Both the position numbers and the translations under genes were made by a program. From a virus, in the IMG/VR virus record IMGVR_UViG_3300009285_004618, positions 1 through 45,725 of that record: DNA of 45,725 bases; one strand, 5' to 3'. The notes beneath the pieces are model-generated. The model saw only the letters and a program-made list of their open reading frames with translations, did no database searches and had not been told where the DNA came from. Shown here in pieces: positions 19,729 through 22,874 of the stretch. Numbering within the stretch: the first letter of the stretch is position 1; each line of letters begins with the position of its first letter.

Positions 19729-19778
19729 CTACCGCCCAATGTATTGAAGTAGCACTTATTGAGGGTTTAACAAAATGA
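19725..19778 (+). CDS. 17-codon coupling mini-ORF
   Basis: ATG at 19725 overlaps the YopX stop (ATGA), and its own TGA overlaps the methyltransferase ATG at 19775 (ATGA again). The peptide would be MTTAQCIEVALIEGLTK. Its double overlap suggests a translational relay that couples methyltransferase output to the upstream operon rather than a functional product. Confidence 0.45.
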   Translation: MTTAQCIEVALIEGLTK

Positions 19779-20929
19779 TACACCTTGATGTATTCTCAGG
19801 CATATGCGGTTTTGCATTAGCGGTAGAAGAAGTGTGGCCTGGAAGCGAACATATTTTCTGCGAAATAGACCCGTTTTGCCAAGCACTAATTAAAAAACGA
19901 TTTGAAGGGAGTGTGATTTATGGGGACGTCAGAACTCTTACCAACACCAAGAGCGGGCAACCCGGGCAGTCGTCCGAACAAAAAAGGCGGGAAGATATTG
20001 GCGGAAGTAGTTGCGACCTCCTCACGGGCGGATTTCCCTGCCAACCTTTTTCCCAAGCAGGAAAAAGACGAGGCACAAGCGATAATCGCTATCTCTGGCC
20101 GGAAATGCTCCGAGTTATACGAGAGTTCCACCCGACATGGATCATCGCTGAAAATGTGCGTGGGCTTCTTACTATCGAGCAAGGCGTGGTATTCGAACAA
20201 GTGTGCCTTGACTTGGAAGGAGAAGGTTACGAAGTCCAACCGTTTATTATTCCAGCTGTTGCCGTCAACGCTCCACACAGAAGGGATAGAGTGTGGTTTG
20301 TTGCGCACTCCAGACACGGGAATGGACAGAGGACCAAGGTCAGACGAGAACCTGAAGGACAGATACCTTGTGCGGAAAATGCCGCTGAACCTGAACGACC
20401 AAATAGCGATGCGAGAGAAGAACCTATTAGCAACACCACAAGCGAGCGACGGAACATCGGGGAGTGTGATAGGCAAGGACGACAAATTTTACCAACTGAA
20501 ATCAGGACGAATGAGGAAGATAAACAAGAACGGAATAGGCGGCTCAATAGGGTTAGCGAGGGAGATAGCAATGCTTCCAACACCCCAAACTCAAGGGTTG
20601 AAAGAGTGTGTGAACGGAAAGACGAGGCCAATGAAGATATTGATAGACACGCCGAGCGTCTCAATGTACAAGGGGTGCGAAAGCAACAAGACAATAAGAA
20701 ACAGAACGGATTATACAATAGAGAAAAACAGGGATGGAACAAAAACTGGCTTGAAGTTGCAACCGAACTTTGTGGAGTGGATGATGGGCTACCCGCAGAA
20801 TTGGACGGACTTAAATTATCAAAAGCCAGACACCGTGTCGAAAGACTAAAGGCTCTTGGCAACGCAATCGTGCCGCAGGTAGCGATGGAAATTATGAGAG
20901 CAATACAAGGAACTATTTTAACAAAATGA
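19775..20929 (+). CDS. C5 cytosine DNA methyltransferase (Dcm-like)
   Basis: A 384-residue enzyme that transfers methyl from SAM to cytosine C5. Motif I is DVFSGICGF, motif IV is GGFPCQPFS (catalytic Cys89), motif VI is ENV (126-128), motif VIII is PHRRDRVWFVA (~167-177), motif X is KALGNAIVPQ (~359-368). The expected target recognition region (~180-325) is a very hydrophilic, low-complexity stretch (Arg/Glu/Asn) that looks disordered. That is the stretch where a second frame is open. No cognate restriction enzyme is nearby, so it probably protects phage DNA from host cleavage. Confidence 0.92.
   Translation: MIHLDVFSGICGFALAVEEVWPGSEHIFCEIDPFCQALIKKRFEGSVIYGDVRTLTNTKSGQPGQSSEQKRREDIGGSSCDLLTGGFPCQPFSQAGKRRGTSDNRYLWPEMLRVIREFHPTWIIAENVRGLLTIEQGVVFEQVCLDLEGEGYEVQPFIIPAVAVNAPHRRDRVWFVAHSRHGNGQRTKVRREPEGQIPCAENAAEPERPNSDAREEPISNTTSERRNIGECDRQGRQILPTEIRTNEEDKQERNRRLNRVSEGDSNASNTPNSRVERVCERKDEANEDIDRHAERLNVQGVRKQQDNKKQNGLYNREKQGWNKNWLEVATELCGVDDGLPAELDGLKLSKARHRVERLKALGNAIVPQVAMEIMRAIQGTILTK
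19920..20849 (+). CDS. Overprinted +1-frame protein inside the methyltransferase gene
   Basis: A 309-residue frame nested within the methyltransferase gene, opened by ATG 19920 after AAGGGAG. It is not random: it carries repeated TP motifs (LLPTPRAG at 6-13, RTPDTG, ATPQASDG, LPTPQ, DTPSVS), a CALTWK segment (95-100) with LLFQLLPST, and a C-terminal PNFVEWMMGYPQNWTDL (282-298). I recognise these from phage proteins usually found beside or fused to C5 methyltransferases; their function is not established. It may be a target-recognition or partner subunit. That it is translated is inferred. Confidence 0.6.
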   Translation: MGTSELLPTPRAGNPGSRPNKKGGKILAEVVATSSRADFPANLFPKQEKDEAQAIIAISGRKCSELYESSTRHGSSLKMCVGFLLSSKAWYSNKCALTWKEKVTKSNRLLFQLLPSTLHTEGIECGLLRTPDTGMDRGPRSDENLKDRYLVRKMPLNLNDQIAMREKNLLATPQASDGTSGSVIGKDDKFYQLKSGRMRKINKNGIGGSIGLAREIAMLPTPQTQGLKECVNGKTRPMKILIDTPSVSMYKGCESNKTIRNRTDYTIEKNRDGTKTGLKLQPNFVEWMMGYPQNWTDLNYQKPDTVSKD

Positions 20930-21067
20930 AAGTGAGAGCCGATGTCAGAAATGACCGACCTATTGCCGAGCTCATGGGATATGAAAGCAATAACTACCCT
21001 TCGTGGTAGAAGTTGCGAAACAATAGGGTGTATCCGAGTGAGTTATCGGCTCTCTCTACTTAAATGA
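20926..21067 (+). other. Short overlapping reading frames over a structured region
   Basis: The 150-base gap after the methyltransferase holds two small frames: ATG 20926 (27 residues, to 21009, coupled by ATGA) and ATG 20942 (41 residues, to 21067). Neither has a family signature and their codon use is unremarkable. The strong nested base pairing of the same DNA explains the region better, so I do not call them genes. Confidence 0.3.
20934..21054 (+). ncRNA. Candidate structured RNA with alternative pairings
   Basis: A perfect 10-base outer stem (GAGAGCCGAT 20934-20943 / ATCGGCTCTC 21045-21054) encloses a GTCA-GAAA-TGAC hairpin with a GNRA loop (20944-20955), a 7-pair stem CCTATTG/CAATAGG (20959-20965 / 21021-21027) and a CTACC/GGTAG hairpin (20994-21009). 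An alternative stem ATTGC/GCAAT (20962-20966 / 20987-20991) competes with the 7-pair stem. This multibranched, switchable plan is what one expects of a riboswitch, a ribozyme or a phage regulatory RNA. I do not match it to a known class. Confidence 0.5.
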
Positions 21068-22146: not shown

Positions 22147-22380
22147 ATGAGCGGACTTGAAAGTTTAATACTTAAATGGATAGGCGAACCCATTAATGAT
22201 AATCAATCACATTACCCTTTACAGATAAGTGATATTCATAATACAAAAGCAGTTAAAGGATTAACTGAAGCCCTTACCCAATATCTTCGTGGGGAGATAG
22301 TCGCCATACGAGAAAGTGACCACGATGGATTAACCTTTAAAGACGCTTGCGATATTATGATTAAGAAACTGGAGATGTGA
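22147..22380 (+). CDS. Small hypothetical protein
   Basis: A 77-residue acidic protein after AAGGAGACCCCAA. It is mostly helical (LESLILKWIGEP, AVKGLTEALTQYLRGEIVAI) with no cysteine cluster or membrane segment. The stop overlaps the start of the downstream HNH gene. No family was recognised. Confidence 0.55.
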   Translation: MSGLESLILKWIGEPINDNQSHYPLQISDIHNTKAVKGLTEALTQYLRGEIVAIRESDHDGLTFKDACDIMIKKLEM

Positions 22381-22874
22381 TGGATAAGGCAAAAGCATTA
22401 TTAAGAAATCGAAGATGGTTTAAGGCGCATCGGTGGCATAAGTCATATAACTGTGCAAAAGCCCGATGTGAAGACTTTGAACATGTATCATTTAATCGAT
22501 ACGGCGGGAGGGGTATAAAAATGCTAATGACCCCAGAAGATTTTAAATTTATATGGTTTAGAGATAAAGCGTCTTTAATGAAAAATCCCTCAGTCGACCG
22601 CATAGATAATGATGGTAATTATATATTGGAGAATTGTAGATATATGGAAAAAGGAGATAATGCCAGAAAGAGTTTAAATAAAAAAATTACACAGCTTTCT
22701 ATGAGGGGAAAAGTAATAAGGGTATTTGATGGCATAGAAAATGCGGCAAAAGAGTTGGGAATAGCCCCAAGCGGCATTTCAATGGCAGTTAATGAATTAC
22801 GGACAAAGGCAGTCGGTTTTAGATGGAGATTTGCTACGAAAGCCGACCTACTGAAACTACTGGAGCAAGCATGA
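22380..22874 (+). CDS. HNH endonuclease with C-terminal NUMOD-like helix-turn-helix
   Basis: A 164-residue protein, ATG 22380 (GTG 22377 possible) after GGAG. The middle has the phage HNH-like block RYGGRGIKM ... PSVDRIDNDGNYILENCRYM (~40-85), a known form of free-standing nuclease. The C-terminal segment (KVIRVFDGIENAAKELGIAPSGISMAV) resembles a NUMOD1-type DNA-binding helix-turn-helix. Probably a mobile homing endonuclease in the accessory cluster. Confidence 0.8.
   Translation: MDKAKALLRNRRWFKAHRWHKSYNCAKARCEDFEHVSFNRYGGRGIKMLMTPEDFKFIWFRDKASLMKNPSVDRIDNDGNYILENCRYMEKGDNARKSLNKKITQLSMRGKVIRVFDGIENAAKELGIAPSGISMAVNELRTKAVGFRWRFATKADLLKLLEQA

Follow-up and report, generated by a model that had tools for sequence, protein, structure and literature searches.

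The locus and its two reading frames

The DNA under study is a virus record of IMG/VR (IMGVR_UViG_3300009285_004618), which was analysed over its whole length of 45,725 nt and is referred to below as the window. It contains a gene for a C5 cytosine methyltransferase, inside which lies a second long open reading frame (ORF), shifted by one base; the question that the locus raises is what the second frame encodes, and how its product is related to the enzyme. The methyltransferase locus is flanked by phage replication and recombination genes, encoding a RecT/Bet-like annealing protein, an exonuclease, a replication initiator, a DnaC-like loader, and NinG-like and HNH nucleases, and a terminase gene is found farther along the window, beyond these genes. 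An HNH endonuclease-like ORF with a GTG start (22377-22874) is located ~1.4 kb downstream of the methyltransferase gene. The kilobase 20001-21000, which consists mostly of the overlapping pair, has a G+C content of 0.479, compared with 0.394 and 0.354 in its neighbours, which perhaps reflects dual coding or a recent transfer.

A preliminary description had placed a +1 ORF within the methyltransferase gene, behind an AAGGGAG site and with one motif of each protein on shared bases, and all of its coordinates were found to be as described. The features of the locus are as follows, with their evidence in brackets.

19775..20929, + strand: alpha subunit, C5 cytosine methyltransferase with motifs I-VIII and X and without IX, 384 aa, ATG start (frame 0; PF00145, E 6e-43)
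19787..19810, + strand: alpha motif I, DVFSGICG (motif position)
19905..19919, + strand: Shine-Dalgarno-like AAGGGAG (19905-19911), +1-frame stop TGA (19914-19916) and spacer, followed by the beta ATG (sequence; clade-wide Shine-Dalgarno enrichment)
19920..20849, + strand: putative beta subunit, +1 frame, 309 aa, ATG start, with an N-terminal helix/hairpin module, a TP-repeat recognition interval and motif IX (phrog_1008, E 9e-30; nested homologues; codon periodicity in relatives)
20027..20053, + strand: alpha motif IV, GGFPCQPFS, which holds the catalytic Cys (motif position; M.HhaI alignment)
20276..20302, + strand: alpha motif VIII, HRRDRVWFV (motif position; M.HhaI alignment)
20301..20756, + strand: putative target-recognition interval, coded in the +1 frame, with TP repeats at 20301, 20424, 20571 and 20643 (substitution pattern in relatives; methyltransferase fourfold sites 0.044 divergent)
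20757..20810, + strand: beta motif IX, LQPNFVEWMMGYPQNWTD, +1 frame (equivalent block of the relative L168 aligns with M.HhaI; hhalign against single-chain relatives)
20855..20875, + strand: alpha motif X, LGNAIVP, frame 0 (motif position; frame-0 periodicity after the beta stop in relatives)

The beta ORF thus lies entirely within the alpha ORF, and VDDGLPAELDG, read in frame 0 from 20777, shares its bases with the motif IX block, one base apart. The frame-0 product is identified as a C5 cytosine DNA methyltransferase by its match to PF00145, its motifs I-VIII and X and its catalytic PC. When frame 0 was compared with M.HhaI using phmmer, the alignment ended at residue 181, after motif VIII, and across 20301..20756 frame 0 is a low-complexity linker.

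Conservation of the nested arrangement

With the +1 protein as the query, 37 viral loci were retrieved; all 37 homologues lie within a methyltransferase ORF and keep the relative frame seen in the window. To avoid circularity, a second set of 80 relatives was collected with the methyltransferase protein alone, the +1 protein being unused; a +1 homologue in the same relative frame is present in all 80. The +1 frame stays free of stops in close and distant relatives alike. In the window the +1 open run extends over 310 codons, compared with a mean of 92 in synonymous codon shuffles (p at its floor, 1/301), and the +1 run exceeds such shuffles at p<0.01 in 75 of the 81 genes formed by the 80 relatives and the window, while the +2 frame does so in none (0/81).

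The arrangement is kept in hundreds of related phage and bacterial genomes. Among the best 80 loci of bacterial genomes, which come from many phyla, the nesting is retained in nearly all, and a handful deviate (e.g. L146, L149 and L168). Within one bacterial order, a match is found in 5 of 147 genomes, and the pair is therefore accessory, as expected of prophages. One Roseovarius assembly contains five identical copies of the nested pair (L154-L158), which are probably repeated prophages. When E. coli genomes were searched at the DNA level, with a relative as the query, the hits were short and confined to prophage copies. Two E. coli prophages (L364 and L365) carry short alpha genes of the same family in E. 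coli chromosomes; the alpha gene of L365 has an internal stop, and its +1 ORF with motif IX is intact.

Selection in both frames

Substitution rates at the three codon positions of the methyltransferase were computed from nucleotide-level alignments of 24 independent pairs. Before the start of beta, positions 1/2/3 change at rates of.168/.116/.430, and over motifs IV-VIII at.104/.050/.200; from VIII to IX the rates are.317/.136/.131, and beyond the stop codon of beta they are.147/.115/.370. A first codon position in the methyltransferase is a third position in beta; the VIII-IX interval therefore evolves as a beta gene does, and the DNA on either side of it as a methyltransferase gene does. 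The window compared with ten relatives gave the same order of rates, with a bias towards beta in the VIII-IX part, whose alignment was made through beta. The stretch of alpha between motifs VIII and X is best read as a linker that is kept open though the DNA there is selected as beta.

The divergence at fourfold sites of the methyltransferase falls from.518 and.560 in the DNA outside the overlap to.223 over motifs IV-VIII and only.044 between VIII and IX; against single-coding DNA, Fisher's test gives 1e-23 and 1e-63 for the two overlapping parts (.22 and.044), respectively. Synonymous sites of the methyltransferase frame are thus constrained within the overlap, where the codon periodicity flips to the +1 frame. 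The homologue, open-frame and synonymous-site checks together bear out the suggestion of the preliminary description that the +1 frame encodes an overprinted partner or target-recognition protein conserved in many phages. In addition, beta starts are preceded by Shine-Dalgarno matches of at least five bases in 112 of 226 loci, against an expectation of 33; in the window only 4 bases agree with the consensus, which by itself is not unusual.

The +1 product as the probable small-domain subunit

For the +1 protein, the best-supported reading is a beta subunit that forms the small domain of the enzyme to which alpha belongs. The protein has homologues outside nested genes: phrog_1008 matches residues 33-301 of the window's beta (E 9e-30), gp5 of the mycobacteriophage Firecracker, and the C-terminal half (residues 258-447) of the single-chain relative L295. 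This family is labelled as a DNA methyltransferase, and the label is silent on the C-terminal half or a nested gene. What the earlier reading had overlooked is that the WMMGYP block of the +1 frame is methyltransferase motif IX, which makes the +1 product the missing piece of the enzyme encoded around it, and that there is a published precedent, M.EcoHK31I.

The assignment of motif IX relies on three relatives, L168, L177 and L185, in which LNPDWVEWLMGYP or FP is encoded in frame 0 immediately 5' of motif X, and on profile comparison. The L168 block was aligned by phmmer with KLHPRECARVMGYPDSY...GNSVV of M.HhaI, from motif IX to X, as a second domain that is weak alone and collinear with a strong first domain. 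Furthermore, comparison of a beta profile with the single-chain set by hhalign gave a probability of 97.8 and an E of 1.2e-12 over the motif IX block. When single-chain, alpha and beta sequences were put into one alignment, the beta rows aligned poorly, and this alignment was set aside. An AlphaFold model of beta alone has a mean pLDDT of 58.8 and no significant match in the PDB, and nothing was found when the beta profile was searched against PDB sequences. In L168, L177 and L185 a shorter +1 ORF still encodes the TP-repeat protein, and it is thus the motif IX block that has switched frame with respect to the remainder of beta.

In the target-recognition domain (TRD) of C5 enzymes, a 'TL' motif of the form P-[STCA]-P-T-[ILV]-[TASV] is located 10-50 residues before motif IX (PMC2413257). 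The PTPxA repeats of beta appear similar to it, which we regard as a lead. The number of TP repeats differs among relatives, and this may, only as a lead, recall multi-target methyltransferases.

Single-chain, split and nested relatives

Relatives of the pair also occur as single chains and as split genes. In L295, L297, L301 and others, a single ORF holds motifs I-VIII, the TP repeats, the IX block and motif X. The AlphaFold model of L295 (pLDDT 69.7, pTM 0.71) has M.HhaI as its best match; the motif IX-X part is well modelled, and the TP-repeat stretch (residues 206-317) is below pLDDT 50. In Firecracker (L201), gp6 carries motifs I-VIII and stops after VIII, and gp5, which overlaps gp6 in the +1 frame, carries the TP motif, IX and X. 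In the commonest layout, frame 0 encodes motifs I-VIII and X, and the +1 frame encodes the recognition interval and motif IX: by regular expressions, and with near-identical loci kept, IX is in the +1 frame and X in frame 0 in 252 loci, both are in the +1 frame in 3 and both are in frame 0 in 6, with no recognisable IX in another 27. The single-chain (L295/L297/L301), partly overlapping (L201) and nested forms can be arranged as a natural series of one enzyme, with motif X in either frame.

A probable two-subunit enzyme and its alternatives

The locus very probably encodes a two-subunit C5 cytosine methyltransferase, both subunits of which are overprinted on one stretch of DNA. Frame 0 would be translated into alpha, with AdoMet binding, the catalytic Cys and motifs I-VIII and X, and translation initiated at 19920, from the internal Shine-Dalgarno/ATG, would produce beta. 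The latter would supply the small domain, that is, the target-recognition region with its TP modules, plus motif IX, and the two chains, both of them presumably needed, would assemble into a single HhaI-like enzyme. The assembled enzyme may methylate the phage DNA and so protect it from restriction, the site being chosen by beta.

It is improbable that programmed frameshifting instead joins the +1 frame to alpha, giving one chain with motifs I-VIII, the recognition region and IX. That a fused chain works is clear from the few relatives in which a single frame holds motifs I-VIII, the TP repeats, IX and X, and L149, with IX and X in its +1 ORF, also fits; however, the +1 ORF has its own start and a Shine-Dalgarno-like site, enriched clade-wide, and its N-terminal part over motifs IV-VIII is constrained (methyltransferase fourfold divergence 0.22 versus 0.52), and no such constraint would be required by a shift downstream of VIII. 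Moreover, frame-0 selection persists on motif X, beyond the end of beta, and an unshifted alpha is therefore needed.

We consider it quite unlikely that beta is an unrelated overprinted protein, e.g. an anti-restriction or regulatory one, merely housed in the methyltransferase gene. Its conserved N-terminal module, of no recognised fold, would be compatible with such a protein, as would its matching no Pfam family, but its C-terminal block is motif IX, absent from frame 0, and in single-chain C5 enzymes its family forms the C-terminal half. Finally, the +1 frame as a passive by-product of methyltransferase codon usage can practically be dismissed: in motif IV the +1 sequence DFPANLFP does follow from GGFPCQPFS, so that similarity there is not independent evidence, but the codon-shuffle test, the flip of codon periodicity and the frozen fourfold sites contradict it.

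Comparison with known systems

The reading of the locus as a two-subunit enzyme has a close parallel in M.EcoHK31I, whose small-subunit gene also lies within the large one, in another frame. M.EcoHK31I (YGGCCR) is described as a two-polypeptide C5 methyltransferase with motifs I-VIII and X in the large subunit and only motif IX in the small polypeptide (account in PMC3404938, citing Lee, Kam and Shaw 1995). The window's alpha, with I-VIII and X and without IX, and its beta, with IX, share this division of motifs, and this kind of enzyme is therefore already known. The two differ in the recognition region: in the window this interval is selected in the small-subunit frame, whereas the same account assigns the TRD of M.EcoHK31I to the large subunit, as a published prediction and not as a tested feature (PMC3404938). 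The +1-frame periodicity of the recognition interval favours a TRD in the window's small subunit. M.AquI (CYCGRG) is a C5 methyltransferase split between motifs VIII and IX into two polypeptides (PMC3404938); its small subunit holds both IX and X, unlike the window, in which X (LGNAIVP) is in frame 0, and Firecracker gp6/gp5 is closer to M.AquI than the window is.

The phage ShiLan likewise has a second protein out of frame within a phage methylase gene, but there it is a mobile insert with an HNH nuclease, whereas the window's +1 frame runs across the conserved motifs IV-VIII and codes for a portion of the enzyme. An out-of-frame HNH insert of the ShiLan type was considered for the window and rejected, with the overlap spanning conserved methyltransferase motifs and no HNH family matched in Pfam or PHROGs.

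Implications and annotation

The pair is a clear case of long overlapping genes on the same strand in phages and prophages, each frame with detectable selection and the two apparently forming one enzyme. In the open-access literature, a scope outside which most subscription papers and the 1995 M.EcoHK31I original fall, we found no description of the overlap as a general phage feature, of its breadth, of direct evidence for selection in two frames, or of a recognition interval in the overprinted subunit. The evidence leaves about an even chance that, throughout a large clade of C5 methyltransferases, the specificity subunit is normally overprinted on the catalytic one, with the recognition domain wholly in beta and built from a variable number of TP modules. 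Phages could then alter specificity through beta, the alpha linker following passively, and since databases list mostly alpha alone, the enzymes would be annotated without a recognition domain. It is predicted that, among C5 methyltransferases annotated as one gene, many lack activity or specificity unless the +1 protein is co-expressed, which bears on the prediction of methylation targets, on cloning and on phage anti-restriction. The series from single-chain through partly overlapping to nested forms also offers a testable route to the origin of such overlaps.

The nested layout is far more frequent than its annotation would suggest. Both frames are annotated as methyltransferase in some phage records, such as that of Paenibacillus phage Tadhana (genes 54 and 55), and many phage records annotate only one of the two. 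In phages FoX4 and Cr-LKS3 (L205 and L208), it is beta, the +1 frame, that is annotated as a coding sequence, and the methyltransferase ORF of frame 0 is left unannotated.
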